The notes beneath the pieces are model-generated. The model did not search any database. It had not been told where the DNA came from and saw nothing but the letters and a program-made list of their open reading frames with translations. Below, one piece after another: positions 37,325 to 64,000 of a DNA stretch of 64,000 nucleotides. A program made the translations under genes and the position numbers. Every line of letters starts with the position of its first letter. Position 1 is the first letter of the stretch. Origin of the DNA: Ostrinia nubilalis (lineage: Eukaryota > Arthropoda > Insecta > Lepidoptera > Crambidae); NCBI RefSeq assembly GCF_963855985.1, contig NC_087106.1:14586012-14650011 (forward strand), in the 5' to 3' direction.

Positions 37325-37335
37325 TAGGTTAGGTT

Positions 37336-37338
<3 letters not shown>
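37325..37338 (+). repeat. telomeric TTAGG repeats (short)
   Basis: About three TTAGG units (TTAGGTTAGGTTAGG) between the 123-bp array and a poly(T) run. TTAGG is the standard insect telomere repeat. Confidence 0.85.
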
Positions 37339-37385
<47 letters not shown>

Positions 37386-37386
<1 letters not shown>

Positions 37387-38162
37387 AATTTGTTTCTATG
37401 CACCTCTGACGATTGCATATCAGAGACTTTGCTATTTTTAGGTTTTAATTTTTTGGCTGGTGTGTTTTTAAGAGTTTTAGTTGTGTTTTTTACCAATGTT
37501 TATTGCTTTAAATTTTGATAACTTTTTAAAGATTAGTTCTAAAATACTTGTTTGAATTTTGCTATTTATCTGTATTAAAATTTTTGTTCTAGTTGCCAAT
37601 TTATGATTTTCTAATTTTTATTAGTGTTTTGTCGTAGATCTGTTATGCCATGTTCGATTTCAGGACACAGGTTTGCTTGTTTGCTGTTAATTATGGGTAA
37701 GTTTTATTTATTTTAATAGGGTAAGTTTTATTTATTTAAATATCAAGGTTTCGGAAAATTTTGAATATCGGGTTATCTGGTGACTCATTTGCAACTACTT
37801 TTTTATGTTCATCTATAATATTCTCATAATATTTAGATAACATAGGTCTTAATTGTTTTCTTTTTAGTGAGCGCCTTTGTGCTGTTTGTTTTGCGAAATG
37901 AGTTTTTGTTTCCAAATAGTCCAATTTGGCCATCAAATTGTTATCTATTTGTTTGTTTTCTGTAAATTTTGAATTTTGTATTTTTGTTGCTATTTTGTGT
38001 TCTAGATTTAAAGCCAAATTTTTGCAGTTTTTAAATTCAAATTTCAAAGTTATTATTATGTTGCTAATATTTTCTTTTTCTGTTACAGGTTTACAGCGAC
38101 GGACGAGGCAGTTCAAGACCGGGATAGTTGTGAGCTGGATGGAGTTATCGCCCGGGGCAACC
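37386..38162 (-). other. AT-rich 3' tail of element A
   Basis: From the ORF1 stop to poly(A). The first 70 bp are GC-rich and nearly identical to copy B; the rest is AT-rich and clearly diverged, except for the last 45 bp before poly(A) (CTCTGATATGCAATCGTCAG...), which are conserved and may be the recognition end for reverse transcription. Overlapping frames are open on both strands in both copies. Confidence 0.6.
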
Positions 38163-39596
38163 TTAGCAGTACGCCACTGTGGATCTGGCCAACGCGTCCC
38201 ACCGCCTGCGCACTGGGCAGTCATTGCTGAACGCATTGTGCTGGACGTGCTCCGCTTTGGCTCGCTGACAGTTCCGGCACGAAGGTGCCCCGCCAGCGAG
38301 CTTCTCGGCGCAGTCGGTGCTCAGGTGTGGCCCTCCACAGTGGCTGCAGACATCCGCGGGCTCCGCGCAGAATCGCTTGCTGTGGCCGTAACCCAGACAC
38401 TTGGTGCACTGCACCAGCGGTGACTGGTCGGCCACTCGGATGTGCTGCAAGTCGATGTGCACGGTTCCCGCATCAGTCGCTCTCTGCCAGATTGCCGGCG
38501 ATACGCTCACAACTATGTGGCGTGTATGGGGGTTTCTGGCCTTTTTTGTGTATCTAACTTGGACGCGGTCCTCCCCCTCGCGGAGTTCATGAAAAATGCC
38601 CCTATTCTGATTTCTCAGAGCCTTCAGGACGTCTTCGTCGCTGTTGAGCAACAAGACGTCCTTCAGGACTAGGAGCGGGTCTTTATTTTTCATGTCCTCC
38701 GCGACTAGGAGGCCCCCGTCCTCTATTCTGGCCTTTACCTTTCTCCTTTCTTCTTCTGTGCTACACCCCATGATGATCTTTTGGTCCTTTGCTTTCCTTA
38801 TCCTGTCCACCTTGACCCATCCCTCCTTGGCGTTGACGGCGTCCCTGACCTTTCGCAGCACCTCCTCCCCTGTCTCCATCGCGTCCTTAGACGTGACCAC
38901 GATGGAGTGCAGGGCCGACCTAACAGGCAGGCGCTGCTGTCCGGGCACGGACGCCGCGACGCTGGCATAGGTAGGTAGACAACTATTCGTGTTCTGTTTT
39001 TCTGCCTCTTCCTTTATTTCGTCTAGCTTTCTATTGTTTTCCAGCAGGAGTCTCCTATTCTCTTTTATCTCGGCCACAATTGCTCCTTCATCAATCCTAC
39101 ACTCCTTCTCCCTATCCGTTTCCTTCTCTACGGAAGGCTCGGGTTCTGGCTCTGAAACCTTCTTCCCCGAGACCTTCCCTTTCCTCTCAATCTCGGCCTC
39201 TTTGACTAGCTGGTACAGCCGATCCAGAGCCTGGATGACGTCTGTCTTGATGTCGCCGCGCAGGTTTCGTGCTGTGCCAAGGGACATCTTAGCCTTCTGC
39301 AGGCAGGCTCTGGCTTCGGCTGTCCTATCCTTTACAGCGGTGGCGGGGGGCTTCGGTGAGCTCGCCGACGCTGCCTCCACGGAAGCCCGGCGCACTGGCG
39401 CGGGTTTCTTGGGGGCCTTAGGGGGCTCGGCCTGCGGCGGGGTTGAGTCGGAGCCAGAGGAAAGCCCAGCTTTCCTGGTCTCCCACTCGCCGACGCTGCG
39501 TCTCACCTTGCCCGGCCTTCGGATAGGCGGGGAGTCAGGAGACTTCTGTTGGACTTCGTCGCTGTTCCTCTTAGCCGGCGTCCTGAAGCCGAACAT
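38163..39596 (-). CDS. gag-like ORF1 with three zinc knuckles, element A
   Basis: 477 aa. Residues 1-90 are basic and Pro/Ser-rich; 155-205 are a Glu/Lys-rich helix; 225-345 are the conserved R1-clade ORF1 region (VVTSKDAMETGEEVLRKV, EGWVKVDRIRKAKDQKIIMG); 397-461 hold three Cys/His knuckles (CTKCLGYGH, CSHCGGPH, CRNCQRAKAEH). In R1-clade elements this protein binds element RNA and, in TRAS/SART, carries it to telomeres. It stands alone here with no ORF2. It is intact, and at protein level about 97% identical to copy B (13 or so substitutions). Confidence 0.88.
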   Translation of the reverse strand: MFGFRTPAKRNSDEVQQKSPDSPPIRRPGKVRRSVGEWETRKAGLSSGSDSTPPQAEPPKAPKKPAPVRRASVEAASASSPKPPATAVKDRTAEARACLQKAKMSLGTARNLRGDIKTDVIQALDRLYQLVKEAEIERKGKVSGKKVSEPEPEPSVEKETDREKECRIDEGAIVAEIKENRRLLLENNRKLDEIKEEAEKQNTNSCLPTYASVAASVPGQQRLPVRSALHSIVVTSKDAMETGEEVLRKVRDAVNAKEGWVKVDRIRKAKDQKIIMGCSTEEERRKVKARIEDGGLLVAEDMKNKDPLLVLKDVLLLNSDEDVLKALRNQNRGIFHELREGEDRVQVRYTKKARNPHTRHIVVSVSPAIWQRATDAGTVHIDLQHIRVADQSPLVQCTKCLGYGHSKRFCAEPADVCSHCGGPHLSTDCAEKLAGGAPSCRNCQRAKAEHVQHNAFSNDCPVRRRWDALARSTVAYC

Positions 39597-40029
39597 GACG
39601 TCAGAGGTGCGCGTCGCCTAAAGTGTGATACAGTGTGATGATAAAAATCAACAGTCCGTATGACCGCGTTGAAATAAAATAAAGGTTTGTAAAAGTTATA
39701 TAAATAAAATTGTATAAAATGTAAAAATAAAAACAGTCTTGTTTCCCCTTTCAGGTACTCGTCAGTCTGGATGGCAGACACTGCGGCAGTCGGTGTGTCA
39801 GGTGAGTATTTATTACTTTGTAATGCGTCTTTTTTTCTTGCAGGTGCCGATTGCAGCAGCGTCGTGTCCAGAAGCGGTCAAATATGTCTAACTCGTCACA
39901 GTTAAATTTGTTAACTGGTCGAAATTACCTAAAACTACTTACAACTAAACCCAAATTTCGTCAAAAAGTCCCTAAGTGTCAACACTACCCAAATCAACCG
40001 AAAACCGAAATAAAAATTTTTGGCCCAAT
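39597..40029 (-). other. 5' leader of element A
   Basis: Lies between the monomer and ORF1 and matches copy B at 48,849-49,328. On the plus strand it has sequences like splice sites (CCCCTTTCAG, GTCAG|GTGAGT, TTTTTCTTGCAG) at the same places in both copies. Confidence 0.6.
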
Positions 40030-40538
40030 CTAAAAAGTTAACCTAGTAAAAGAGAAAAGGGTGGGTGGGCGGGCTGTTTTTTAAATAAAGTTTTTGACCT
40101 CCGATCGCAACAAATGAGGTGTCTATGGATAGGGCTCGCCGAGACGAATCCAAAAAGCTGAAAAACGCCAGGGGTGGCCCTAGAAAATTTTGAAAATGAC
40201 GCCCAAAAACCGTCTCAGATCCCAAAAGAAACACTAAAGACCACCAAAAAAGCGGAATTTAGTATGAAACGATGTCAATCGAACGTCACGGGAGTGCTAA
40301 ACCGAAAAGGGTGAACCTATTTAAAAGAAAAAATTTTGAAAAACCGACCAAAAATTACCAAGTTAAAAAATTTTGTATGAAAAAATTCTAAGTCAATATT
40401 AAAAATCTAAAAAATTGAATAAAATCGCCGGGAAGGGTGCTAGGGGTCTCAAAATGTTACGGGGGTGTAGGCAAAAATGTGGCGCTCAAAATGATGTATA
40501 TAACCTATAGGTAGGCTATTATTTTCTAGAAATTTGAG
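40030..40538 (-). repeat. single diverged 528-type monomer at the 5' end of element A
   Basis: Corresponds to about 450 bp of the 528-bp satellite unit (shared: GGCTCGCCGAGACGAATCCAAAA, shown here only as its first bases GGCTCGCCGAGACGAATCC; also CTAGAAAATTTTGAAAATGA). It is perhaps 80% identical and stops abruptly at TTTGAGTT, where TTAGG repeats begin. The 75 bp that would complete the unit are missing. Confidence 0.82.
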
Positions 40539-40542
40539 TTGG

Positions 40543-40569
40543 GTTAGGTTAGGTTAGGTTAGGTTAGGT
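40543..40569 (+). repeat. telomeric TTAGG repeats
   Basis: Five TTAGG units plus TT between the 5' end of element A and the 5' end of the plus-strand element. Confidence 0.9.
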
Positions 40570-40913
40570 TGGGGTGCGGTGGTGAGGGACCTCCCCGTGG
40601 TGCACCCCGGGCAACGGCCGCGTGTTCTGTCACGCGGGCGGCTGACTTCTCACCGGCGCGGCAGGTTGCGTCAACTCGGCGGGCCTGTCGGGCAACCCGT
40701 AACCCCCCAATGGAGGGGGGCCGGGGGCCCCGGCTACGGAAGTCGGGGTCAAGACAAGGAAAAGTCTATAAAACCCTCAAATGCCAAGGTCTGGGGGGGG
40801 CCGAGGAGCAGTGTCGGGTGTTAACAGCTCGACACGGTCGGTGGAGTATCATCGGCCGTTACCCCTCCCGGGAGTGAGGTGGGGCAGCTGCGCCCGCAAG
40901 CAGCGGAAAAAAC

Positions 40914-43142
40914 ATGAATAGTGTCAAAACGGTAAAAACTACCCGGGCGGGTCCCAGCCATGCTGGGGTATCCCGTGGCCGCTCACAAGGCGGTCGGCCC
41001 TGTGTATACGGGGGGGCCAACACTATTCCGCGGTCTCGGCCGCGTCACGACGACTCAAGCAACCACAACACGGACTCGAACTCGCACAACGGAACGGATA
41101 CTGACGATAAGGAGGTGGAGGCCTGTGCCCCGTTGGCACACGCCGAAACCAACGACCAAGGCAAATCCCAGACGGACTCTGAGAAGGAGAAGGAGAGGGA
41201 GAAATCGGCGCGGAAGCGCCGGCGTCGGCAGGGGAGTGCTCGAACTAGCACCGATAACTCTTCCCTGTCAGAAGAGGAGACGGCCCCGGCCCCCAAATTT
41301 AGCACTGCACGCCGTGGCAAGAAAGCCGGCAGTGCCCAGCGGGCCCAGGACTACTACCGGAGAGTAGAAGAGCTGGAGGAGCTCGATTTCAATGTCGACC
41401 TGGACAAGAGGGCCAAGGCCAGCCTGATCCGCCGCGAAGGAAGCCGGGCGGGTGGCTCAACCTCGCCGGACCTCGAAGACCCCAAGTCCAGGGTCGACTA
41501 CGAAAGGCTGGATCTGGAGCAGCTGAGGGCCCGCGGGGGACTGTTTGTCTCCGAGATCGCCCGCGTCTCCCAGATCTCTGGACGGCTACAGGGCCCCCTG
41601 AAAGGAGCCCTCAACAGGTCGGCGGACAACCTAGCCGGCATCCTTGACCAGCTCGCAGCCCGGTCAGAGACTGAGGAGAACCGCCGGCTGAGAGTCGACA
41701 ACGCCAACCTGAGGAGAGAAGTTGAGGGCCTCCATGGAGAGATCCGCGCCCTTAGGCGTGATATGGCGGAACTTACTGCCAACGTCGGCAAGAGCGCCAA
41801 CAAACGGGCGACACCCCCGCCGGCGGCCCCGTCAGCTAGCGAGGAGGAGATGGAGCCGCAAGCTCCCACGAGGGACCCCCTTCCGCAGGGCGCATTATGC
41901 GCCCAATCAATTGAAGAGCTGCTGCAGATGGCATGCCAGAGGGCCGTCGACTCGGCGGCTAAACTCATCGACGCCAGATTGGGGGATCTGGAGAGCCGTC
42001 TGCCGCCCCAGAAGACCCTCCGCCCCCCGCTCGCGGCCGACAGTAGGAATCCCCCGGCCCCTACGGAGGGCCCAACCCCAGCGCCAAGGTCAGCCTCCGG
42101 GCGAAAGAAAACACGCCCAACAAGGCCGCAACCCCCATCCCAGCCGGAACCAGTAGCTTCCAGCCAAGAGGTCCAGACGGCGCCCTCATCGGCTCCTCCA
42201 GCCGAAACATGGGCCACCGTGACACGGAAGGGGAAGAAGAAGAAACCCAGGACTGCCGCCGCTTCCCAACCGGTCCCTGCGCCCAGGACGGCTCCAACGG
42301 CGCCGAAACCGAAGCCCAAGCGGGTAAAACTGACCCCTCCCCGCAACGCGGCCATCGTGGTGACGCTGCAGCCAGAGGCGGCAAAGAGGGGGTCTACCTA
42401 CAAGGAGGTGCTCACCAAAGCCAAGGCTGCAGTGGACCTGTCCGAGCTGGGTATCCCCAGCATAAAGGTCACTGACTCGGCGACCGGAGCTCGTCTTATC
42501 GAGGTTCCTGGCGCTGAGTCCAGAGAAAAGGCCGACAAGCTGGCGGAGAAACTGAAGACGGTTCTCGGTGGCGATGTGACTGTCACCAGACCTGAGAAGC
42601 GCGCGGGCGTGCGCATCTCTGGCCTGGACGAGTCCGTCACCAGGGAGGAGGTCGCCGAAGCAGTGGCCAACAAGACGGGTTGCTCTCTGGAAGCTGTCAG
42701 AGTGGGGGAGATCCGGCGCAGCTCCCGTGGAGAGGGAATAGCCACACTCAGCTGCCCGGTTGTTGCGGCCAAGGCACTGTCGGAGGCCGGCCGCTTCCTG
42801 ATTGGGTGGTCCTCGGCCCGTGTCCAAGTCTTGGAGGCTCGCCCGATGCGCTGTTTCAAGTGCATGGGGCTTGGACACACCCGACAGCTGTGCCCTTCTT
42901 CGGCTGACCGCAGTGGCCTGTGCTTCCGGTGTGGAAATCCGGGGCACAAGGCCGCAGAATGTTCGGCAAAGGACGCGCGCTGCGCTATTTGCGCTGAGGC
43001 CGGCCGCGATGCCAGCCATCATATGGGGGGTAGGAATTGCAACCCCCCGCAAACAAGAGGGAAGACAGCCGCAGGGGTTCTGGTCCCCCTGGTAGAGGAG
43101 CACCATGAGCAGTGCGAGGAGGCAGATATGCTCGATGGGTAG
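40914..43142 (+). CDS. R1-clade ORF1 (gag-like, three CCHC knuckles)
   Basis: 742 aa from an ATG 343 bp inside the element. Residues 1-150 are charged and Ser-rich; 205-245 include the LKGALNRSADNLAGILDQL stretch typical of R1-type ORF1; about 250-292 are a coiled coil; 300-470 are Pro/Ala-rich; about 478-645 are the conserved domain before the knuckles (VVTLQPEAAKRGSTYKEVL, GVRISGLDESVTREEV); 647-709 are three knuckles (CFKCMGLGHTRQLC, CFRCGNPGHKAAEC, CAICAEAGRDASH). It is intact. The TAG stop lies inside the start of ORF2 (38-nt overlap), so ORF2 is probably made by reinitiation. It differs strongly from the 477-aa protein of A and B. Confidence 0.9.
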   Translation: MNSVKTVKTTRAGPSHAGVSRGRSQGGRPCVYGGANTIPRSRPRHDDSSNHNTDSNSHNGTDTDDKEVEACAPLAHAETNDQGKSQTDSEKEKEREKSARKRRRRQGSARTSTDNSSLSEEETAPAPKFSTARRGKKAGSAQRAQDYYRRVEELEELDFNVDLDKRAKASLIRREGSRAGGSTSPDLEDPKSRVDYERLDLEQLRARGGLFVSEIARVSQISGRLQGPLKGALNRSADNLAGILDQLAARSETEENRRLRVDNANLRREVEGLHGEIRALRRDMAELTANVGKSANKRATPPPAAPSASEEEMEPQAPTRDPLPQGALCAQSIEELLQMACQRAVDSAAKLIDARLGDLESRLPPQKTLRPPLAADSRNPPAPTEGPTPAPRSASGRKKTRPTRPQPPSQPEPVASSQEVQTAPSSAPPAETWATVTRKGKKKKPRTAAASQPVPAPRTAPTAPKPKPKRVKLTPPRNAAIVVTLQPEAAKRGSTYKEVLTKAKAAVDLSELGIPSIKVTDSATGARLIEVPGAESREKADKLAEKLKTVLGGDVTVTRPEKRAGVRISGLDESVTREEVAEAVANKTGCSLEAVRVGEIRRSSRGEGIATLSCPVVAAKALSEAGRFLIGWSSARVQVLEARPMRCFKCMGLGHTRQLCPSSADRSGLCFRCGNPGHKAAECSAKDARCAICAEAGRDASHHMGGRNCNPPQTRGKTAAGVLVPLVEEHHEQCEEADMLDG

Positions 43143-46100
43143 TCGCCAAATCTGCCTCCTCCAGGGGAACCTTAACCACGCTGCTGGGGCGCAGGATCTC
43201 TTTCTGCAATCCCTGGCAGCGTGGAACATTGACGTTGCGGTTGCCGCAGAACCCTACTGGGTTTCCCCTCAACCCCACTGGGCAGGAGATTCCGGGGGTC
43301 ACGTGGCCATCGTCTGCCGCACAGGACCCGCTGCCAAACCCCTTATACCGCGGGAGCGTGGCCCCGGGTTTGTCTCGGCTGTTTGGGGGGAGTACGGAAT
43401 CGTCGGTGTGTACTTCTCGCCCAACCGACCTCTTTCGGACTTCGAGGCATTCCTGCACACCCTGGGGCCGGTAGTCCAAAGGCTCGCGCCTCATCAGGTT
43501 GTCCTTATGGGCGACCTGAACGCCAAATCGCGGGCTTGGGGCGGGAACACCACCGACGTCCGAGGCAGGGCCCTCGAGGACTGGGCAACGGAGGTCGGGC
43601 TGTCGGTCCTTAACACCGGGACAGATTACACGTGCGTGCGGCCGCAGGGCAATTCAAGGGTGGATGTTTCTTTCGCTACCCCTGCAACGGCACGCCGTGT
43701 AGTCAATTGGCGGGTAATGGAGGAGGAGACTCTCTCGGACCACTTATATATCCGTTTTGAAATCTCCCCCTCCTCGAGCCCCAACGCTCCCCGTCGATCC
43801 GATAGCTCGGCCTATCCTAGGTGGGCCATCACCAGGCTGGATAGGGAAAAAGCCGAGGAAGCCGCTATTGTCCAGGCCTGGTGCTCGAAAGGCAGACCCC
43901 CCCCCCCCAGATGCAGACACCGGTGCCGCCCAACTTCGCGCAGCGCTGGTGGCAGTCTGCGACGCGGCTATGCCGAGAGTCCGCTGTGTGCCGAACCGAC
44001 AGCAAGTTTACTGGTGGACCCAAGAGATAGCGGATCTCCGGACCACCAGCAATGCAGCAAGGAGGGCGTACACACGCCACCGTCGCCGCGCAACCCGCAA
44101 CCCGGAGGAAGAAGGCCGACTCTATGATGCCTTCAAGGAGTCAAGAAGAGTCCTCCGGATCGCTATCTTGGAGGCCAAGGCGGAGGCTCATAACTCCATG
44201 TTGGAGGAGCTTGACGCGGATCCGTGGGGGCGCCCATACCGTGCTGCGCGTAACAAACTTCGCAGCCAAACAGCGCCCGTCACGGAAACCATGGAGCCGG
44301 CCCTTCTCCGACAGGTTATGGAGAGCCTGTTCCCCGAACAAGGGAACTCACCTGACCCAGCCCTCCCGGAGCCCAGGGTTAGTCGACCGGAGCCTCCGTT
44401 TCAACCTGTGTCGGAGGTGGAAGTGGGTGCCGCGCTGGACCGGCTCCTTGGCAAAAGGAGGGCCCCGGGCCCCGACGGGATCCCTGGCAAAGTCCTCCGC
44501 CTGGCCATGCGGGTTGAGGAGAATGAGGGTAAGCTTCGGGAACTGTTCGACATAAGCCTTAGAACCGGACGGTTCCCGAAGCCTTGGAAAGAGGGCCGCC
44601 TGTGCCTGCTGCACAAGGAGGGTCGCCCAGCCGACTCCCCGTCCGCCTACAGACCCATCGTGCTGCTTGATGAGGCGGGGAAGGTACTCGAAAGGGTCCT
44701 GGTTTCCCGCCTTACCAGGCACCTCGAGGACGTTGGCCCAAACCTCTCAGACCGGCAGTTTGGCTTCAGGGCGAGTCGCTCTACTCTCGATGCCTTGTCC
44801 GCCCTGAAGTCAACAACGGAGGAGGCCGTGTCCCGCGGAGAGAGGGCGGTGGCGGTGTCCTTGGACATCGCCAACGCCTTTAATAGCCTGCCCTTTGATG
44901 TGATAGTATCGGCGCTCCACCACCACGGAGTGCCGGCCTATCTCATCAGGCTGCTGGCGGACTATCTGCGGGACCGAGAGGTGTCTTTCGTGGACGGGAG
45001 CGGCGAATTGGTTCGGCACGCGATCTCCTGCGGAGTCCCCCAGGGATCGGCCCTCGGGCCGACTCTTTGGAATATCGGCTACGACAGTGTGCTGCGGTGC
45101 AGGCTCCTCAGAGGGACGAGCCTGCTCTGCTACGCGGACGATACACTGGTCGTAGCCACAGGAAGGGCTCTGCCGGAGCTGTACTTGCGGGTGGAGGCGG
45201 CCACCGAGATGATCGTGGCCCGCATCAGGGGCTTAGGCCTAGAAGTGGCCCCTCAGAAAACCGAGGCCCTAATGTTTCATGGGCCACGGCGCGGGCCACC
45301 CCCTGGTGCCCACCTCACAATCGAGGGCGTCCGGGTGACGATCGGTGCCCGGATGAAATATCTGGGCATCGTGTTGGATGGGCGGTGGACATTCCACTCC
45401 CACTTTGAGGGACTGGCCCCAAAGCTGGTGGGAGCGGCAGCGGCCCTGGGTAGGCTGCTGCCTAACGTAAGAGGCCCCAGCGTGAGTTGTCGCAAACTTT
45501 ACGCTGGGGTTATACGAAGCATGGCCCTATACGGAGCCCCAATCTGGGTCGGCTCCCTCGATCGGGAGAACCGTGCCGCCCTGCGGCGCCCGCAACGAAC
45601 CATAGCGTTGCGGGCTATTAGAGGCTACCGCACCGTTTCACACGGTGCGGCTTGTGTGCTGGCCGGACTCCCCCCCTGGGAGCTTGAGGCCGAGGTTCTT
45701 GACGCGGTCTATAGGTACCGAACGTCAAGGCGGCAAGCGGGGGAGCGTCCGGCCTTTGAAGAGGTGGAGCGCGTCCGTGATCTTGCTCGGGAGGAGCTTC
45801 TGCGGCGCTGGGAGCTGGAGCTGGTGGGTCCCCGCTATGGCGTAAGAACCATAGAGGCGATCCGCCCAGTCCTGGATCAGTGGGTTCATCGGAGGCACGG
45901 CTCCCTTACTTACCGCCTGGTGCAGGTGCTGACCGGACACGGATGTTTCGGTTGGTACCTGCATCTGATAGGTAGGGAGCCCAGCCCCGTATGTCACGAG
46001 TGCGGCGCTGCGGAGGACACGGCCCAGCACACCCTTGAGGCGTGCCCGGCTTGGGTCCCGCAGCGCCGTATTCTGACTGCGATGATTGGTCCGGACCTCG

Positions 46101-46297
46101 CGCTCCCCAGCGTCGTAGTTGCGATGCTCCTGGGTGAGAGCGCGTGGGACGCCATGGTCTCCTTCTGCGAAGAGGTGATGACGCAGAAGGAGACCGCGGA
46201 ACGGGCTAGGGAAGAGGATCCCGAAGCCCACGCGCTCCGGCGCAGACGGCCGGGAGGAAGAAGGAGGAGATTCGCTCGCCTCCTTCCGCCTCCCTAG
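43105..46297 (+). CDS. R1-clade ORF2 (endonuclease + reverse transcriptase), frameshifted
   Basis: Starts at ATG 43,105 (a later ATG at 43,132 is possible). The endonuclease is at 43,150-43,770 (LLQGNLNHAAGAQD, AAEPYW, MGDLNAKSRAWG, LSDHLYIRF). In a run of 12 C (43,897-43,908) the frame changes by +1, as if one C were extra; the original frame ends at 44,127 and the new one is open to 46,297. RT follows: RAPGPDGIPGKVLR, LDIANAFNSLPFD, GVPQGSALGPTLW and YADD at about 45,130. The C-terminal zinc motif is CHEC...HTLEAC at about 45,990-46,040, typical of R1. The break may be a true mutation or a homopolymer sequencing error. If real, no full ORF2 protein is made. Confidence 0.88.
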
Positions 46298-46594
46298 GTG
46301 AGACCAGTGGGTGTTAGGCCGGGGGGCCCATCACCCACATTGCACGGTCTCACCCTGTCTGGGGGGGTCTACCAGTGTACCGGTAGACCCCCTCTTTAGC
46401 GCGGGGGCCCGGCAAGGCTGGGCGATGCGTTGGCACGGCGTGGTGGAATCGATAAGCGCCCCATGTCGTGCCAATAAAACGCAGAGGGTGCACCGCAGGT
46501 TTTTAGTGGGTATACTTGTCGGGTGGCAGCCGCTATTGCTGCCATCCGACGAGGGAGTCCCACATAACCCGCCGCTTCCCCCGAGGCGGCAGGG
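46298..46594 (+). other. hairpin-rich 3' UTR of the R1-clade element
   Basis: Strong predicted hairpins in series: GGTGAGACC / GGTCTCACC (46,297-46,354, with an inner GTGGGTG / CACCCAC); GGGGGTCTACC / GGTAGACCCCC (46,363-46,392); TTGGCACG / CGTGCCAA (about 46,432-46,473); GTCGGGTGGCAGC / GCTGCCATCCGAC with one G-T pair (46,518-46,550); and a short CCGCC / GGCGG near the end. AATAAA is present at 46,473-46,478 but no poly(A) follows. Such structures serve 3' recognition by the RT in R1/R2-type elements. Confidence 0.75.
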
Positions 46595-46620
46595 TTAGGT
46601 TAGGTTAGGTTAGGTTAGGT
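46595..46620 (+). repeat. telomeric TTAGG repeats
   Basis: Five TTAGG units between the 3' end of the plus-strand element and the poly(T) of element B. Confidence 0.9.
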
Positions 46621-46645
46621 TTTTTTTTTTTTTTTTTTTTTTTTT

Positions 46646-52300: not shown

Positions 52301-55300
52301 ATAAATTAGCGAAATGAAATCGTAGGGGTCTCAAAATGGTACTGGCGTGTCGGCAAAAATTTGGCGCTCAAAACGATGTACAATACCTATAGGTGAGCTA
52401 TTATTTTCTAGAAATTAGAGTTAAATATTTGATTTGTCGAGCTCCACCAAGTAACCTCGGTTCGGTCAAATTTGGAGTAGGTTTTTCCAAATTTCCAAAC
52501 TTCCTGTCGTCGGATCCCTACAAATGGGGTGTCTACGGATAGGGCTCGCCGAGACGAATCCAAAAAGACGATAAACGTCGGGGGTGGCCCTAGAAAATTT
52601 TGAAAATGACGTCCAAAAACCGTCTCAGATGTTACCCAAAACACTAAAGACCACCAAAAAAGCAGAATTTAGTATGGAGCGGTGTCAATCGGACGTCAGG
52701 GGGATGCTAAACCGAAAGGGGTGAGTCTATTTAAGCGAAAGAATTTTGAAAATCGGACCAAAAATGACAAAGTTATAAAATTTACTATGGAATTTTTCTA
52801 AGTCTAAATTAAAAATACAAAATTTTGAATAAATTAGCGAAATGAAATCGTAGGGGTCTCAAAATGGTACTGGCGTGTCGGCAAAAATTTGGCGCTCAAA
52901 ACGATGTACAATACCTATAGGTGAGCTATTATTTTCTAGAAATTAGAGTTAAATATTTGATTTGTCGAGCTCCACCAAGTAACCTCGGTTCGGTCAAATT
53001 TGGAGTAGGTTTTTCCAAATTTCCAAACTTCCTGTCGTCGGATCCCTACAAATGGGGTGTCTACGGATAGGGCTCGCCGAGACGAATCCAAAAAGACGAT
53101 AAACGTCGGGGGTGGCCCTAGAAAATTTTGAAAATGACGTCCAAAAACCGTCTCAGATGTTACCCAAAACACTAAAGACCACCAAAAAAGCAGAATTTAG
53201 TATGGAGCGGTGTCAATCGGACGTCAGGGGGATGCTAAACCGAAAGGGGTGAGTCTATTTAAGCGAAAGAATTTTGAAAATCGGACCAAAAATGACAAAG
53301 TTATAAAATTTACTATGGAATTTTTCTAAGTCTAAATTAAAAATACAAAATTTTGAATAAATTAGCGAAATGAAATCGTAGGGGTCTCAAAATGGTACTG
53401 GCGTGTCGGCAAAAATTTGGCGCTCAAAACGATGTACAATACCTATAGGTGAGCTATTATTTTCTAGAAATTAGAGTTAAATATTTGATTTGTCGAGCTC
53501 CACCAAGTAACCTCGGTTCGGTCAAATTTGGAGTAGGTTTTTCCAAATTTCCAAACTTCCTGTCGTCGGATCCCTACAAATGGGGTGTCTACGGATAGGG
53601 CTCGCCGAGACGAATCCAAAAAGACGATAAACGTCGGGGGTGGCCCTAGAAAATTTTGAAAATGACGTCCAAAAACCGTCTCAGATGTTACCCAAAACAC
53701 TAAAGACCACCAAAAAAGCAGAATTTAGTATGGAGCGGTGTCAATCGGACGTCAGGGGGATGCTAAACCGAAAGGGGTGAGTCTATTTAAGCGAAAGAAT
53801 TTTGAAAATCGGACCAAAAATGACAAAGTTATAAAATTTACTATGGAATTTTTCTAAGTCTAAATTAAAAATACAAAATTTTGAATAAATTAGCGAAATG
53901 AAATCGTAGGGGTCTCAAAATGGTACTGGCGTGTCGGCAAAAATTTGGCGCTCAAAACGATGTACAATACCTATAGGTGAGCTATTATTTTCTAGAAATT
54001 AGAGTTAAATATTTGATTTGTCGAGCTCCACCAAGTAACCTCGGTTCGGTCAAATTTGGAGTAGGTTTTTCCAAATTTCCAAACTTCCTGTCGTCGGATC
54101 CCTACAAATGGGGTGTCTACGGATAGGGCTCGCCGAGACGAATCCAAAAAGACGATAAACGTCGGGGGTGGCCCTAGAAAATTTTGAAAATGACGTCCAA
54201 AAACCGTCTCAGATGTTACCCAAAACACTAAAGACCACCAAAAAAGCAGAATTTAGTATGGAGCGGTGTCAATCGGACGTCAGGGGGATGCTAAACCGAA
54301 AGGGGTGAGTCTATTTAAGCGAAAGAATTTTGAAAATCGGACCAAAAATGACAAAGTTATAAAATTTACTATGGAATTTTTCTAAGTCTAAATTAAAAAT
54401 ACAAAATTTTGAATAAATTAGCGAAATGAAATCGTAGGGGTCTCAAAATGGTACTGGCGTGTCGGCAAAAATTTGGCGCTCAAAACGATGTACAATACCT
54501 ATAGGTGAGCTATTATTTTCTAGAAATTAGAGTTAAATATTTGATTTGTCGAGCTCCACCAAGTAACCTCGGTTCGGTCAAATTTGGAGTAGGTTTTTCC
54601 AAATTTCCAAACTTCCTGTCGTCGGATCCCTACAAATGGGGTGTCTACGGATAGGGCTCGCCGAGACGAATCCAAAAAGACGATAAACGTCGGGGGTGGC
54701 CCTAGAAAATTTTGAAAATGACGTCCAAAAACCGTCTCAGATGTTACCCAAAACACTAAAGACCACCAAAAAAGCAGAATTTAGTATGGAGCGGTGTCAA
54801 TCGGACGTCAGGGGGATGCTAAACCGAAAGGGGTGAGTCTATTTAAGCGAAAGAATTTTGAAAATCGGACCAAAAATGACAAAGTTATAAAATTTACTAT
54901 GGAATTTTTCTAAGTCTAAATTAAAAATACAAAATTTTGAATAAATTAGCGAAATGAAATCGTAGGGGTCTCAAAATGGTACTGGCGTGTCGGCAAAAAT
55001 TTGGCGCTCAAAACGATGTACAATACCTATAGGTGAGCTATTATTTTCTAGAAATTAGAGTTAAATATTTGATTTGTCGAGCTCCACCAAGTAACCTCGG
55101 TTCGGTCAAATTTGGAGTAGGTTTTTCCAAATTTCCAAACTTCCTGTCGTCGGATCCCTACAAATGGGGTGTCTACGGATAGGGCTCGCCGAGACGAATC
55201 CAAAAAGACGATAAACGTCGGGGGTGGCCCTAGAAAATTTTGAAAATGACGTCCAAAAACCGTCTCAGATGTTACCCAAAACACTAAAGACCACCAAAAA

Positions 55301-58300
55301 AGCAGAATTTAGTATGGAGCGGTGTCAATCGGACGTCAGGGGGATGCTAAACCGAAAGGGGTGAGTCTATTTAAGCGAAAGAATTTTGAAAATCGGACCA
55401 AAAATGACAAAGTTATAAAATTTACTATGGAATTTTTCTAAGTCTAAATTAAAAATACAAAATTTTGAATAAATTAGCGAAATGAAATCGTAGGGGTCTC
55501 AAAATGGTACTGGCGTGTCGGCAAAAATTTGGCGCTCAAAACGATGTACAATACCTATAGGTGAGCTATTATTTTCTAGAAATTAGAGTTAAATATTTGA
55601 TTTGTCGAGCTCCACCAAGTAACCTCGGTTCGGTCAAATTTGGAGTAGGTTTTTCCAAATTTCCAAACTTCCTGTCGTCGGATCCCTACAAATGGGGTGT
55701 CTACGGATAGGGCTCGCCGAGACGAATCCAAAAAGACGATAAACGTCGGGGGTGGCCCTAGAAAATTTTGAAAATGACGTCCAAAAACCGTCTCAGATGT
55801 TACCCAAAACACTAAAGACCACCAAAAAAGCAGAATTTAGTATGGAGCGGTGTCAATCGGACGTCAGGGGGATGCTAAACCGAAAGGGGTGAGTCTATTT
55901 AAGCGAAAGAATTTTGAAAATCGGACCAAAAATGACAAAGTTATAAAATTTACTATGGAATTTTTCTAAGTCTAAATTAAAAATACAAAATTTTGAATAA
56001 ATTAGCGAAATGAAATCGTAGGGGTCTCAAAATGGTACTGGCGTGTCGGCAAAAATTTGGCGCTCAAAACGATGTACAATACCTATAGGTGAGCTATTAT
56101 TTTCTAGAAATTAGAGTTAAATATTTGATTTGTCGAGCTCCACCAAGTAACCTCGGTTCGGTCAAATTTGGAGTAGGTTTTTCCAAATTTCCAAACTTCC
56201 TGTCGTCGGATCCCTACAAATGGGGTGTCTACGGATAGGGCTCGCCGAGACGAATCCAAAAAGACGATAAACGTCGGGGGTGGCCCTAGAAAATTTTGAA
56301 AATGACGTCCAAAAACCGTCTCAGATGTTACCCAAAACACTAAAGACCACCAAAAAAGCAGAATTTAGTATGGAGCGGTGTCAATCGGACGTCAGGGGGA
56401 TGCTAAACCGAAAGGGGTGAGTCTATTTAAGCGAAAGAATTTTGAAAATCGGACCAAAAATGACAAAGTTATAAAATTTACTATGGAATTTTTCTAAGTC
56501 TAAATTAAAAATACAAAATTTTGAATAAATTAGCGAAATGAAATCGTAGGGGTCTCAAAATGGTACTGGCGTGTCGGCAAAAATTTGGCGCTCAAAACGA
56601 TGTACAATACCTATAGGTGAGCTATTATTTTCTAGAAATTAGAGTTAAATATTTGATTTGTCGAGCTCCACCAAGTAACCTCGGTTCGGTCAAATTTGGA
56701 GTAGGTTTTTCCAAATTTCCAAACTTCCTGTCGTCGGATCCCTACAAATGGGGTGTCTACGGATAGGGCTCGCCGAGACGAATCCAAAAAGACGATAAAC
56801 GTCGGGGGTGGCCCTAGAAAATTTTGAAAATGACGTCCAAAAACCGTCTCAGATGTTACCCAAAACACTAAAGACCACCAAAAAAGCAGAATTTAGTATG
56901 GAGCGGTGTCAATCGGACGTCAGGGGGATGCTAAACCGAAAGGGGTGAGTCTATTTAAGCGAAAGAATTTTGAAAATCGGACCAAAAATGACAAAGTTAT
57001 AAAATTTACTATGGAATTTTTCTAAGTCTAAATTAAAAATACAAAATTTTGAATAAATTAGCGAAATGAAATCGTAGGGGTCTCAAAATGGTACTGGCGT
57101 GTCGGCAAAAATTTGGCGCTCAAAACGATGTACAATACCTATAGGTGAGCTATTATTTTCTAGAAATTAGAGTTAAATATTTGATTTGTCGAGCTCCACC
57201 AAGTAACCTCGGTTCGGTCAAATTTGGAGTAGGTTTTTCCAAATTTCCAAACTTCCTGTCGTCGGATCCCTACAAATGGGGTGTCTACGGATAGGGCTCG
57301 CCGAGACGAATCCAAAAAGACGATAAACGTCGGGGGTGGCCCTAGAAAATTTTGAAAATGACGTCCAAAAACCGTCTCAGATGTTACCCAAAACACTAAA
57401 GACCACCAAAAAAGCAGAATTTAGTATGGAGCGGTGTCAATCGGACGTCAGGGGGATGCTAAACCGAAAGGGGTGAGTCTATTTAAGCGAAAGAATTTTG
57501 AAAATCGGACCAAAAATGACAAAGTTATAAAATTTACTATGGAATTTTTCTAAGTCTAAATTAAAAATACAAAATTTTGAATAAATTAGCGAAATGAAAT
57601 CGTAGGGGTCTCAAAATGGTACTGGCGTGTCGGCAAAAATTTGGCGCTCAAAACGATGTACAATACCTATAGGTGAGCTATTATTTTCTAGAAATTAGAG
57701 TTAAATATTTGATTTGTCGAGCTCCACCAAGTAACCTCGGTTCGGTCAAATTTGGAGTAGGTTTTTCCAAATTTCCAAACTTCCTGTCGTCGGATCCCTA
57801 CAAATGGGGTGTCTACGGATAGGGCTCGCCGAGACGAATCCAAAAAGACGATAAACGTCGGGGGTGGCCCTAGAAAATTTTGAAAATGACGTCCAAAAAC
57901 CGTCTCAGATGTTACCCAAAACACTAAAGACCACCAAAAAAGCAGAATTTAGTATGGAGCGGTGTCAATCGGACGTCAGGGGGATGCTAAACCGAAAGGG
58001 GTGAGTCTATTTAAGCGAAAGAATTTTGAAAATCGGACCAAAAATGACAAAGTTATAAAATTTACTATGGAATTTTTCTAAGTCTAAATTAAAAATACAA
58101 AATTTTGAATAAATTAGCGAAATGAAATCGTAGGGGTCTCAAAATGGTACTGGCGTGTCGGCAAAAATTTGGCGCTCAAAACGATGTACAATACCTATAG
58201 GTGAGCTATTATTTTCTAGAAATTAGAGTTAAATATTTGATTTGTCGAGCTCCACCAAGTAACCTCGGTTCGGTCAAATTTGGAGTAGGTTTTTCCAAAT

Positions 58301-61300
58301 TTCCAAACTTCCTGTCGTCGGATCCCTACAAATGGGGTGTCTACGGATAGGGCTCGCCGAGACGAATCCAAAAAGACGATAAACGTCGGGGGTGGCCCTA
58401 GAAAATTTTGAAAATGACGTCCAAAAACCGTCTCAGATGTTACCCAAAACACTAAAGACCACCAAAAAAGCAGAATTTAGTATGGAGCGGTGTCAATCGG
58501 ACGTCAGGGGGATGCTAAACCGAAAGGGGTGAGTCTATTTAAGCGAAAGAATTTTGAAAATCGGACCAAAAATGACAAAGTTATAAAATTTACTATGGAA
58601 TTTTTCTAAGTCTAAATTAAAAATACAAAATTTTGAATAAATTAGCGAAATGAAATCGTAGGGGTCTCAAAATGGTACTGGCGTGTCGGCAAAAATTTGG
58701 CGCTCAAAACGATGTACAATACCTATAGGTGAGCTATTATTTTCTAGAAATTAGAGTTAAATATTTGATTTGTCGAGCTCCACCAAGTAACCTCGGTTCG
58801 GTCAAATTTGGAGTAGGTTTTTCCAAATTTCCAAACTTCCTGTCGTCGGATCCCTACAAATGGGGTGTCTACGGATAGGGCTCGCCGAGACGAATCCAAA
58901 AAGACGATAAACGTCGGGGGTGGCCCTAGAAAATTTTGAAAATGACGTCCAAAAACCGTCTCAGATGTTACCCAAAACACTAAAGACCACCAAAAAAGCA
59001 GAATTTAGTATGGAGCGGTGTCAATCGGACGTCAGGGGGATGCTAAACCGAAAGGGGTGAGTCTATTTAAGCGAAAGAATTTTGAAAATCGGACCAAAAA
59101 TGACAAAGTTATAAAATTTACTATGGAATTTTTCTAAGTCTAAATTAAAAATACAAAATTTTGAATAAATTAGCGAAATGAAATCGTAGGGGTCTCAAAA
59201 TGGTACTGGCGTGTCGGCAAAAATTTGGCGCTCAAAACGATGTACAATACCTATAGGTGAGCTATTATTTTCTAGAAATTAGAGTTAAATATTTGATTTG
59301 TCGAGCTCCACCAAGTAACCTCGGTTCGGTCAAATTTGGAGTAGGTTTTTCCAAATTTCCAAACTTCCTGTCGTCGGATCCCTACAAATGGGGTGTCTAC
59401 GGATAGGGCTCGCCGAGACGAATCCAAAAAGACGATAAACGTCGGGGGTGGCCCTAGAAAATTTTGAAAATGACGTCCAAAAACCGTCTCAGATGTTACC
59501 CAAAACACTAAAGACCACCAAAAAAGCAGAATTTAGTATGGAGCGGTGTCAATCGGACGTCAGGGGGATGCTAAACCGAAAGGGGTGAGTCTATTTAAGC
59601 GAAAGAATTTTGAAAATCGGACCAAAAATGACAAAGTTATAAAATTTACTATGGAATTTTTCTAAGTCTAAATTAAAAATACAAAATTTTGAATAAATTA
59701 GCGAAATGAAATCGTAGGGGTCTCAAAATGGTACTGGCGTGTCGGCAAAAATTTGGCGCTCAAAACGATGTACAATACCTATAGGTGAGCTATTATTTTC
59801 TAGAAATTAGAGTTAAATATTTGATTTGTCGAGCTCCACCAAGTAACCTCGGTTCGGTCAAATTTGGAGTAGGTTTTTCCAAATTTCCAAACTTCCTGTC
59901 GTCGGATCCCTACAAATGGGGTGTCTACGGATAGGGCTCGCCGAGACGAATCCAAAAAGACGATAAACGTCGGGGGTGGCCCTAGAAAATTTTGAAAATG
60001 ACGTCCAAAAACCGTCTCAGATGTTACCCAAAACACTAAAGACCACCAAAAAAGCAGAATTTAGTATGGAGCGGTGTCAATCGGACGTCAGGGGGATGCT
60101 AAACCGAAAGGGGTGAGTCTATTTAAGCGAAAGAATTTTGAAAATCGGACCAAAAATGACAAAGTTATAAAATTTACTATGGAATTTTTCTAAGTCTAAA
60201 TTAAAAATACAAAATTTTGAATAAATTAGCGAAATGAAATCGTAGGGGTCTCAAAATGGTACTGGCGTGTCGGCAAAAATTTGGCGCTCAAAACGATGTA
60301 CAATACCTATAGGTGAGCTATTATTTTCTAGAAATTAGAGTTAAATATTTGATTTGTCGAGCTCCACCAAGTAACCTCGGTTCGGTCAAATTTGGAGTAG
60401 GTTTTTCCAAATTTCCAAACTTCCTGTCGTCGGATCCCTACAAATGGGGTGTCTACGGATAGGGCTCGCCGAGACGAATCCAAAAAGACGATAAACGTCG
60501 GGGGTGGCCCTAGAAAATTTTGAAAATGACGTCCAAAAACCGTCTCAGATGTTACCCAAAACACTAAAGACCACCAAAAAAGCAGAATTTAGTATGGAGC
60601 GGTGTCAATCGGACGTCAGGGGGATGCTAAACCGAAAGGGGTGAGTCTATTTAAGCGAAAGAATTTTGAAAATCGGACCAAAAATGACAAAGTTATAAAA
60701 TTTACTATGGAATTTTTCTAAGTCTAAATTAAAAATACAAAATTTTGAATAAATTAGCGAAATGAAATCGTAGGGGTCTCAAAATGGTACTGGCGTGTCG
60801 GCAAAAATTTGGCGCTCAAAACGATGTACAATACCTATAGGTGAGCTATTATTTTCTAGAAATTAGAGTTAAATATTTGATTTGTCGAGCTCCACCAAGT
60901 AACCTCGGTTCGGTCAAATTTGGAGTAGGTTTTTCCAAATTTCCAAACTTCCTGTCGTCGGATCCCTACAAATGGGGTGTCTACGGATAGGGCTCGCCGA
61001 GACGAATCCAAAAAGACGATAAACGTCGGGGGTGGCCCTAGAAAATTTTGAAAATGACGTCCAAAAACCGTCTCAGATGTTACCCAAAACACTAAAGACC
61101 ACCAAAAAAGCAGAATTTAGTATGGAGCGGTGTCAATCGGACGTCAGGGGGATGCTAAACCGAAAGGGGTGAGTCTATTTAAGCGAAAGAATTTTGAAAA
61201 TCGGACCAAAAATGACAAAGTTATAAAATTTACTATGGAATTTTTCTAAGTCTAAATTAAAAATACAAAATTTTGAATAAATTAGCGAAATGAAATCGTA

Positions 61301-64000
61301 GGGGTCTCAAAATGGTACTGGCGTGTCGGCAAAAATTTGGCGCTCAAAACGATGTACAATACCTATAGGTGAGCTATTATTTTCTAGAAATTAGAGTTAA
61401 ATATTTGATTTGTCGAGCTCCACCAAGTAACCTCGGTTCGGTCAAATTTGGAGTAGGTTTTTCCAAATTTCCAAACTTCCTGTCGTCGGATCCCTACAAA
61501 TGGGGTGTCTACGGATAGGGCTCGCCGAGACGAATCCAAAAAGACGATAAACGTCGGGGGTGGCCCTAGAAAATTTTGAAAATGACGTCCAAAAACCGTC
61601 TCAGATGTTACCCAAAACACTAAAGACCACCAAAAAAGCAGAATTTAGTATGGAGCGGTGTCAATCGGACGTCAGGGGGATGCTAAACCGAAAGGGGTGA
61701 GTCTATTTAAGCGAAAGAATTTTGAAAATCGGACCAAAAATGACAAAGTTATAAAATTTACTATGGAATTTTTCTAAGTCTAAATTAAAAATACAAAATT
61801 TTGAATAAATTAGCGAAATGAAATCGTAGGGGTCTCAAAATGGTACTGGCGTGTCGGCAAAAATTTGGCGCTCAAAACGATGTACAATACCTATAGGTGA
61901 GCTATTATTTTCTAGAAATTAGAGTTAAATATTTGATTTGTCGAGCTCCACCAAGTAACCTCGGTTCGGTCAAATTTGGAGTAGGTTTTTCCAAATTTCC
62001 AAACTTCCTGTCGTCGGATCCCTACAAATGGGGTGTCTACGGATAGGGCTCGCCGAGACGAATCCAAAAAGACGATAAACGTCGGGGGTGGCCCTAGAAA
62101 ATTTTGAAAATGACGTCCAAAAACCGTCTCAGATGTTACCCAAAACACTAAAGACCACCAAAAAAGCAGAATTTAGTATGGAGCGGTGTCAATCGGACGT
62201 CAGGGGGATGCTAAACCGAAAGGGGTGAGTCTATTTAAGCGAAAGAATTTTGAAAATCGGACCAAAAATGACAAAGTTATAAAATTTACTATGGAATTTT
62301 TCTAAGTCTAAATTAAAAATACAAAATTTTGAATAAATTAGCGAAATGAAATCGTAGGGGTCTCAAAATGGTACTGGCGTGTCGGCAAAAATTTGGCGCT
62401 CAAAACGATGTACAATACCTATAGGTGAGCTATTATTTTCTAGAAATTAGAGTTAAATATTTGATTTGTCGAGCTCCACCAAGTAACCTCGGTTCGGTCA
62501 AATTTGGAGTAGGTTTTTCCAAATTTCCAAACTTCCTGTCGTCGGATCCCTACAAATGGGGTGTCTACGGATAGGGCTCGCCGAGACGAATCCAAAAAGA
62601 CGATAAACGTCGGGGGTGGCCCTAGAAAATTTTGAAAATGACGTCCAAAAACCGTCTCAGATGTTACCCAAAACACTAAAGACCACCAAAAAAGCAGAAT
62701 TTAGTATGGAGCGGTGTCAATCGGACGTCAGGGGGATGCTAAACCGAAAGGGGTGAGTCTATTTAAGCGAAAGAATTTTGAAAATCGGACCAAAAATGAC
62801 AAAGTTATAAAATTTACTATGGAATTTTTCTAAGTCTAAATTAAAAATACAAAATTTTGAATAAATTAGCGAAATGAAATCGTAGGGGTCTCAAAATGGT
62901 ACTGGCGTGTCGGCAAAAATTTGGCGCTCAAAACGATGTACAATACCTATAGGTGAGCTATTATTTTCTAGAAATTAGAGTTAAATATTTGATTTGTCGA
63001 GCTCCACCAAGTAACCTCGGTTCGGTCAAATTTGGAGTAGGTTTTTCCAAATTTCCAAACTTCCTGTCGTCGGATCCCTACAAATGGGGTGTCTACGGAT
63101 AGGGCTCGCCGAGACGAATCCAAAAAGACGATAAACGTCGGGGGTGGCCCTAGAAAATTTTGAAAATGACGTCCAAAAACCGTCTCAGATGTTACCCAAA
63201 ACACTAAAGACCACCAAAAAAGCAGAATTTAGTATGGAGCGGTGTCAATCGGACGTCAGGGGGATGCTAAACCGAAAGGGGTGAGTCTATTTAAGCGAAA
63301 GAATTTTGAAAATCGGACCAAAAATGACAAAGTTATAAAATTTACTATGGAATTTTTCTAAGTCTAAATTAAAAATACAAAATTTTGAATAAATTAGCGA
63401 AATGAAATCGTAGGGGTCTCAAAATGGTACTGGCGTGTCGGCAAAAATTTGGCGCTCAAAACGATGTACAATACCTATAGGTGAGCTATTATTTTCTAGA
63501 AATTAGAGTTAAATATTTGATTTGTCGAGCTCCACCAAGTAACCTCGGTTCGGTCAAATTTGGAGTAGGTTTTTCCAAATTTCCAAACTTCCTGTCGTCG
63601 GATCCCTACAAATGGGGTGTCTACGGATAGGGCTCGCCGAGACGAATCCAAAAAGACGATAAACGTCGGGGGTGTGGCCCTAGAAAATTTTGAAAATGAC
63701 GTCCAAAAACCGTCTCAGATGTTACCCAAAACACTAAAGACCACCAAAAAAGCAGAATTTAGTATGGAGCGGTGTCAATCGGACGTCAGGGGGATGCTAA
63801 ACCGAAAGGGGTGAGTCTATTTAAGCGAAAGAATTTTGAAAATCGGACCAAAAATGACAAAGTTATAAAATTTACTATGGAATTTTTCTAAGTCTAAATT
63901 AAAAATACAAAATTTTGAATAAATTAGCGAAATGAAATCGTAGGGGTCTCAAAATGGTACTGGCGTGTCGGCAAAAATTTGGCGCTCAAAACGATGTACA
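49329..64000 (-). repeat. 528-bp satellite array, 27 complete monomers plus a partial
   Basis: An exact 528-bp period from 49,329 to the edge. The copies look identical by eye; the one difference found is a 2-bp insertion (GTGG to GTGTGG) at about 63,673 in the last, partial unit. Each unit carries a 78-aa minus-strand ORF of no recognisable family; element A's monomer has only a damaged version, so I treat it as non-coding. The first unit joins the leader of element B at the same place as the single monomer of A. Confidence 0.95.

Follow-up and report, generated by a model that had tools for sequence, protein, structure and literature searches.

ORF1-only retroelements in the TTAGG repeats of Ostrinia nubilalis: a gag-only family, probably mobilised in trans, whose 5′ unit may have become a chromosome-end satellite

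How does a retroelement that encodes only a gag-type protein come to occupy telomeric repeats, and why does one copy carry a long array of 528-bp units at its 5′ end? Both questions are raised by a 64,000-nucleotide stretch of the 495-Mb genome of the moth Ostrinia nubilalis (contig NC_087106.1, here C19:14586012-14650011; hereafter 'the window'), in which two minus-strand elements, A (37339-40543) and B (from 46620), lie among TTAGG repeats with a first open reading frame (ORF1) and no second (ORF2). We consider it probable that A and B belong to a gag-only family of retroelements without long terminal repeats (non-LTR), situated in TTAGG and likely mobilised in trans, in which the 5′ unit holds the start site of the element RNA and has been multiplied into satellite DNA. 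The features on which this reading is built are as follows (window positions).

37324-37338, TTAGG x3, the target at the 3′ (proximal) side of element A, running on from GTTAGG of a 123-bp satellite
37339-37385, minus strand, poly(A) tail of element A (47 nt), against CCTAA
37386-38162, minus strand, 3′ tail of element A, without ORF2; hairpin CTCTGA...TCAGAG at about 37404-37425
38163-39596, minus strand, element A ORF1, 477 aa, predicted to form helices and two RRM-like folds, followed by three CCHC-type knuckles
39597-40099, minus strand, leader of element A, between unit and ORF1 (border approximate)
40100-40543, minus strand, incomplete 528-bp-type unit of element A, 83-84% identical to B units, starting at unit position 467
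40544-40568, TTAGG x5 separating element A, whose 5′ end it adjoins, from the neighbouring element C
46595-46619, TTAGG x5 separating elements C and B
46620-46645, minus strand, poly(A) tail of element B (26 nt)
46646-47414, minus strand, 3′ tail of element B; hairpin at about 46668-46689
47415-48848, minus strand, element B ORF1, 477 aa
48849-49328, minus strand, leader of element B
49329-64000, minus strand, 528-bp unit array at the 5′ side of element B, going on to C19:14672011 (about 69.5 units), then N

This architecture, from the poly(A)/CCTAA junction through tail, intact 477-aa ORF1 and leader to the 5′ unit, is as the original prediction had placed it in both elements, again without ORF2. 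Element A has one incomplete unit only (about 454 of 528 nt). Frames of 166 and 208 aa that overlap the end of ORF1 were considered as starts of an ORF2 and rejected; they enter the AT-rich tail and have no endonuclease (EN) or reverse transcriptase (RT) match.

A protein search of the whole genome with ORF1, with the best 89 of 827 candidates scored and copy counts being lower bounds, placed ORF1 at least 89 times, 86 of these without an inner stop and a few partial. The 3′ side was read systematically at 83 of the 89 places (the 30 best and 53 further copies), and 72 of the 83 are ORF1-only copies with a poly(A): 25 of the best 30, where it lies 683-787 nt past the stop and five copies enter N, and 47 of the further 53, where it lies 597-773 nt from the ORF1 end and four enter N. 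Two interstitial copies, L078 and L096, have no poly(A) of 12 or more within 1.2 kb. ORF2 was not seen in the readable 3′ parts of the 83 copies, so that the outcome against which the original prediction was set, ORF2 in most copies, was looked for and did not appear. A tblastn search of the 53 further 3′ stretches with the ORF2 of element D, a TRAS-like relative beyond the array of B, gave a sole match, at L067, past that copy's own poly(A)-CCTAA junction. Long open frames in L006, L014 and L020 were rejected as ORF2, being runs of N. Two extra copies, C5:3 and C4:22172 (start of L060), have the same poly(A)-CCTAA ending. When the final 135 nt ahead of the poly(A) served as the query (best 40 of 48 candidates scored), 34 of 40 matches fell within 1.5 kb of a listed ORF1; among the other six, L060, L062 and L063 are 5′-truncated copies with poly(A), L061 meets a contig end, L064 is fragmentary and has no poly(A), and C27:109668 begins at CCTAA inside its own tail, seen in L024. 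ORF2 was seen at none of these six. The tails carry one of two hairpin types, CTCTGA...TCAGAG or CTCTGG...CTAGAG, which differ by a paired change and of which one or the other is present in 46 of 47.

A separate observation concerns the leader just 5′ of the ORF1 start, which is complementary to the tail end (the 3′ hairpin arm); the longest such stretch measures 7-14 nt in each of the 25 copies compared, two of which reach only 7 nt; in element A the partners are window positions of about 37398-37410 and 39599-39610. By eye, 13 further copies gave ten full matches and three differing at two letters. We note this pairing as a candidate 5′-3′ RNA contact and do not adopt it, the leader motif not having been found in the ORF2-bearing sister family described below.

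The best-ranked named homologue of the ORF1 protein is O. nubilalis LOC135078368; a Pfam search with ORF1 gave no family match and a scan of viral contigs no relative. An AlphaFold2 model from an alignment of 30 sequences has a mean pLDDT (predicted local distance difference test) of 64 and is better in the middle, where residues 229-389 form two RRM-like folds; its best PDB matches are tandem-RRM proteins (best E 1.1e-05), with TM-scores of 0.13-0.17 by query length. C-terminal to these folds lie three CCHC-type knuckles, whose cysteines and histidines are invariant in the 30-sequence alignment and whose pattern we take to be R1-type. An RNA-binding role is predicted from this model. Across all 435 pairs of the 30 compared ORF1s, every one of them open, median synonymous divergence (dS) is 0.30, and in the 423 pairs with dS >0.02 the ratio of nonsynonymous to synonymous divergence (dN/dS) has a median of 0.12 and a maximum of 0.23. 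Third codon positions vary in 217 of 479 codons, first positions in 54 and second positions in 59. As judged from these codon comparisons, ORF1 is shown to be under purifying selection, and 30 open frames at such dS and dN/dS have therefore long been constrained.

Constraint of this kind bears on whether the copies are no more than remnants of ordinary TRAS elements after internal deletions, events so recent that ORF1 has simply stayed open. The homology of ORF1 to that of element D (48% identity over 403 aa) would fit such an origin, as would the GC-rich start of the tail (in B a GC content of 0.57 in the first 80 nt after the stop and 0.24 in the remainder), placed where ORF2 begins in element D. 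Recent leftovers, however, would not be expected to share dS and dN/dS values that speak for long constraint, nor a single short architecture that recurs among copies about 80% identical in protein, and many copies have the standard 5′ end, a poly(A) and, at dispersed sites, target-site duplications. We regard this explanation as quite unlikely.

On contigs longer than 1 Mb, 69 of 86 copies lie within 200 kb of an end (chance expectation 2.6%), distributed over 34 ends of 29 contigs; three of the 89 ORF1 rows, on small or unmeasured contigs, were excluded from this count. All 69 have the 5′ end outward, which is a consequence of insertion into a directional repeat and not independent evidence. 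The remaining 17 of 86 are interstitial, eight of them oriented as the end-near ones. The poly(A) faces CCTAA at 19 of 25 resolved junctions among the 30 best copies and, by a strict test, at 39 of 47 among the 53 further ones, with dispersed copies among the remainder. Target-primed reverse transcription leaves 5′ truncation, poly(A) of variable length and target-site duplications; the 5′-truncated copies and the duplications of 12-13 bp at dispersed copies L012, L017, L022 and L025 are marks of this process in the ORF1-only family. No target-site duplication was present in the DNA examined at L013, and L030 was ambiguous. The family had been described at the outset as telomere-targeted, which holds for most copies, in TTAGG and near ends, but not strictly, given the 17 interstitial ones. 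Telomere homing by the ORF1 protein itself is conjectural, and published work places target choice mainly in the ORF2 endonuclease (PMC7265360, available sections). At L067 (C27:58579-59778) an ORF1-only element with its poly(A)-CCTAA junction is followed by a 5′-truncated TRAS-like ORF2 fragment, 78-79% identical to element D, and these neighbours indicate that both kinds of element use common repeat tracts.

The tandem units seen at the 5′ side of element B, at least 27 in the original prediction, extend past the window: the array measures 36,672 nt (about 69.5 units) and runs to C19:14672011, where a 2,500-base run of N begins. Its 70 BLAST rows comprise 64 full and perfect units, four with indels of 1-2 nt and two edge pieces; inside the window variation is confined to the proximal edge and a 2-nt indel in the last unit. 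So many letter-perfect full units, in an array ending in N, raise the suspicion that the 37-kb array is partly an assembly artefact of multiplied or misjoined units. Arrays of 1-12 full units on other chromosomes speak against this, as does a read-based survey in which a 528-bp tandem satellite makes up 0.12-0.15% of the genome and forms large terminal clusters on the sex chromosomes by fluorescence in situ hybridisation (FISH) (PMC8042265, available sections), and we hold an artefact to be rather unlikely.

Where do the arrays begin and to what are they joined? Scoring the best 13 of 186 candidate chunks gave 13 arrays, of which 11 lead into a listed ORF1; a unit found mainly in arrays unlinked to this ORF1, which would have told against the original prediction, is not what these 13 present. 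A 5′ start is visible in nine, with 1, 1, 1, 1, 2, 2, 5, 5 and 12 full units, and falls at unit position 467 in eight; a pair among the nine, on C14, may represent a single duplicated block, and the other four arrays are cut by a contig or chunk edge. Among copies with one incomplete unit, 12 start at 467 and L014 is cut by N. The same start holds where a target-site duplication fixes the border (L012, L017 and L025). This fixed 5′ start at position 467 is newly described here. Because 5′ ends lie mostly at 467 whether about 0.9, 1.9 or 12.9 units are present, each 528-bp unit likely carries a start site of the element RNA, as far as the DNA alone can tell. On this reading arrays of the B type would have lengthened once the element was in place, since transcripts that begin inside a unit cannot yield copies exceeding their parent in unit number.

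A fixed 5′ end could also arise if the RNA were cleaved once per unit, by a ribozyme or at a processing site, with no transcription start there. R2-type elements do so (PMC3414825, available sections), and the neighbouring element C has a match resembling the hepatitis delta virus (HDV) ribozyme at its 5′ end. Against this, no Rfam match up to E 1 was found in the unit or leader (37300-51000 scanned), and cleavage in every unit would leave sub-unit 5′ ends only, whereas copies with 1-12 full units exist; cleavage seems to us an improbable source of the start.

A satellite of the same description has been published. Onub-Sat01 is 528 bp long with 39.77% GC, enriched in terminal regions and terminal by FISH (Cabral-de-Mello et al. 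2021, PMC8042265, available sections), its deposited record being among MW369067-MW369073; the window unit of 528 bp, with 39.0% GC, agrees with it in length, GC and chromosome-end location, and the two are probably the same. The available sections of that paper report no relevant similarity of O. nubilalis satellites in Repbase or NCBI, and neither they nor the open-licence papers listed link Onub-Sat01 to a retroelement. The same source describes Onub-Sat04, of 123 bp, 37.39% GC and terminal enrichment. Window positions 36339-37330 hold 8.1 perfect units of a 123-bp satellite with TTAGG-like pieces, to whose GTTAGG the 3′ end of element A is joined; it agrees with Onub-Sat04 in length, with a GC content of 40.7% against 37.4%.

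The 528-bp unit might be an older subtelomeric satellite of the host, which elements picked up or landed in. In favour of this, two of the 13 arrays have no listed ORF1, and the 123-bp satellite abuts element A yet is no part of it. The unit, however, lies inside dispersed copies bounded by target-site duplications (L012, L017 and L025), occurs at four interstitial places of the sister family, and has a single position for 5′ ends in arrays of 1-12 full units; a host origin is very unlikely.

If the ORF1-only RNA moves, it would need enzymes from elsewhere, and two kinds of ORF2-bearing relative, both newly described here, come into question. Element D lies about 7.4 kb past the visible array end in the orientation of B, with a 58-nt poly(A) against CCTAA and an open ORF2 of 1235 aa that has EN, RT and RNase H matches; a stretch of 2.9 kb 5′ of its ORF1 shows neither unit nor leader. 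Published TRAS elements of O. nubilalis have an additional helicase domain in ORF2 (PMC5563155, available sections), and no Pfam match to a helicase domain was found in element D at E 0.01. At least 39 ORF2 places were found (best 38 of 7361 candidates scored); on measured contigs 27 of 33 are near ends, and all 27 point outward. Ten of the 39 lie at most 6 kb downstream of an ORF1-only copy, whose own poly(A) intervenes in all ten. The tails of ten ORF2 places and of D were compared: six are TRAS-like and readable to the poly(A), two are masked, two have no poly(A) in reach, and L115 has the hairpin.

L115 belongs to the second kind, a sister family at four interstitial ORF2 places (C7, C1, C19 and C31) that are 63% identical to D. 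At each of them the poly(A) is immediately preceded by the hairpin CTCTGATTACGTCAGAG, and the 528-type unit is present, 86-90% identical over long matches and starting at unit position 463-467; the leader is matched at three. Sister ORF1 is complete at C1 and C19, where it is 55% identical to that of A, and partly open at C7 (63% over 311 aa). At C1, C19 and C7 the ORF2 match, from residue 18, starts 26 nt past the ORF1 end, and at C31:1502300-1504760 (L122) the unit array abuts the ORF2 match, from residue 59; leader and ORF1 are therefore missing there. Target-site duplications measure 16 nt at C1, 12 nt at C19 and 11 nt at C31, with none clear at C7. The sister family is the nearest ORF2-bearing relative seen, and the divergence of its ORF1 suggests, from sequence comparison, that the ORF1-only family is old. 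The original idea that the 5′ unit of the family can form arrays stands by virtue of their linkage, but the unit is not peculiar to ORF1-only copies. Target choice in TRAS1 and SART1 is attributed primarily to the EN domain, and SART1 proteins mobilise RNA bearing the SART1 3′ UTR (untranslated region) in trans (PMC7265360, available sections); on these grounds telomeric copies may have used a TRAS-like ORF2 and dispersed copies the sister ORF2.

Copies also appear to have traded parts. Between A and B, ORF1 has 60 differences in 1434 nt (12 aa), and their distribution is very uneven: none falls in the first 478 nt, a run of identity not reached in any of 10,000 codon shuffles, and two other stretches have dS of 0.64 and 0.46. 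Outside ORF1 the unit blocks and most of the leader are 68-87% identical and the tail 78-89%, with the leader at 93-97% beside ORF1. This mosaic was absent from the original prediction. Among 24 of the 30 best copies (five masked ones and L022 were dropped), how similar two copies are in one module (unit, leader, either of two ORF1 parts, or tail) says little about their similarity in another (Spearman -0.10 to 0.30, 276 pairs), and 75 of the 276 pairs combine one module at >=97% with another at <=80%. Modules have therefore been exchanged among copies, a reassortment of unit, leader, ORF1 and tail that is new here and would have proceeded by template switching or gene conversion.

Taken together, these data favour a non-autonomous gag-only family whose 5′ unit expands into satellite, supported by the census, the 11 of 13 ORF1-linked arrays and the fixed start. 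An ORF1-only element with a TRAS-like (R1-type) ORF1 would insert mostly in TTAGG, 5′ end toward the chromosome end, its RNA moving in trans on the RT and EN of ORF2-bearing relatives. Each unit would start element RNA near position 467, and some copies, once inserted, would have their unit multiplied by subtelomeric unequal exchange or slippage (about 70 in B), the multiplied units having made the satellite published as Onub-Sat01. Telomeric TRAS-like elements would supply the machinery for TTAGG insertions, and the interstitial sister family, sharing unit, leader and 3′ hairpin, would supply it for the dispersed insertions and mark ancestry.

Several observations weigh against parts of this scheme. 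Nine of the 83 copies enter N 3′ of ORF1, with 154-720 readable nt that match the resolved tails (L014 over 83 nt only, at 81%; L009 at 66%). Six TRAS-like tails (D, L108, L110, L111, L112 and L114) are unlike the six ORF1-only tails compared and lack the hairpin, and no family seen combines a matching 3′ end with a telomere target, the hairpin-bearing sister having been found at four non-telomeric places. Arrays C51:10660-13762 and C10:37501-46295 are the two without a listed ORF1, one array starts at 462 and L010 at 473, and the outer border of the element B array lies in N. The identity of the unit with Onub-Sat01 rests on length, GC and location.

Other elements accompany the family. Element C (window 40569-46594, plus strand) is a TTAGG-flanked long interspersed nuclear element (LINE) between A and B, with an ORF1 of 742 aa, EN and RT in two overlapping frames, and a 3′ end without poly(A) that passes straight to GGTTAGG. 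Its 5′ end (40569-40654) has a full-length HDV-ribozyme match at 39.7 bits, below the gathering score of 50, and its structure suggests that it may be cotranscribed with telomere repeats and freed by the putative ribozyme. We rejected C as a helper, given its opposite orientation, its lack of poly(A) and the different frames of EN and RT. Element E (L059:4501-9104, minus strand) is a second ORF1-only-looking element, with a 533-aa frame 27% identical to the ORF1 of A, no same-strand frame of 150 aa in the 1.6 kb to its poly(A), which meets N, and on its 5′ side GC-rich short tandem repeats followed by TTAGG. Elsewhere in the window, 4706-11377 (minus strand) is an open 2223-aa frame that, by eye, we take to resemble a BEL/Pao polyprotein, and 81-4593 (plus strand) is an ORF1/ORF2 LINE with RT and EN matches.

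How does the ORF1-only family compare with known systems? Mouse L1 elements begin within one of the tandem units at their 5′ side, and in the moth family 5′ ends likewise lie at a fixed place within a tandem unit; the moth family differs in being ORF1-only and in a chromosome-end copy that bears about 70 units. With TRAS (Bombyx TRAS1, R1-clade) it shares the poly(A)/CCTAA junction, the orientation and ORF1 homology with three CCHC-type knuckles. TRAS, however, has an ORF2 with EN and RT, and because the readable parts of 83 copies show none we do not class the family as a TRAS element despite its TRAS-type parts. Short internally deleted R2/R1 elements (SIDEs) are also non-autonomous derivatives retaining 5′ and 3′ parts, but they join a 5′ ribozyme to a 3′ end (PMC3414825, available sections), whereas tens of copies here retain an intact ORF1 under constraint. 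Onub-Sat01 was described as a satellite without known relatives (PMC8042265, available sections), whereas the unit here is the 5′ part of a retroelement.

A comparable organisation exists in Drosophila, where a gag-only element is accompanied by a rarer relative with a polymerase and by a third element whose polymerase probably serves others as well (PMC5537684, available sections). Like HeT-A, the moth family is gag-only and non-LTR, with a long 3′ region, one orientation at ends and the poly(A) toward the centromere, and it has enzyme-bearing relatives in its own genome, one of which shares other modules, as may be compared with TAHRE (PMC5537684, available sections). In contrast to HeT-A, which stands on ends without TTAGG repeats, in place of simple repeats and at chromosome ends only, it sits within TTAGG, and 17 of 86 copies are interstitial, some with target-site duplications; a further difference is that the moth family bears tandem units at its 5′ side, the sense promoters of HeT-A and TAHRE being located in both UTRs. 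Among the open-licence papers listed there is no prior report of a gag-only telomeric element in moths. More tentatively, as a proposal we think a little likelier to fail than to hold, a trio like HeT-A, TAHRE and TART may have arisen a second time in moth TTAGG telomeres: a constrained gag-only rider on a telomere-specific TRAS polymerase, with promoter units and hairpin from an older, dispersed autonomous relative and nearly free swaps of modules, whose promoter unit became the most abundant chromosome-end satellite published for O. nubilalis.

Our reading offers an origin for a published and unexplained chromosome-end satellite and a natural case of a LINE 5′ unit becoming satellite DNA. 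The family would join HeT-A as a second gag-only element of telomeres, this time in an insect whose TTAGG repeats persist, so that the onset of such a division of labour could be examined at a stage preceding loss of the simple repeats. Because ORF1-only copies occur in both TTAGG and dispersed sites, and two possible kinds of helper are present, the system can test what sends RNA to telomeres: ORF1, the 3′ hairpin or the endonuclease.

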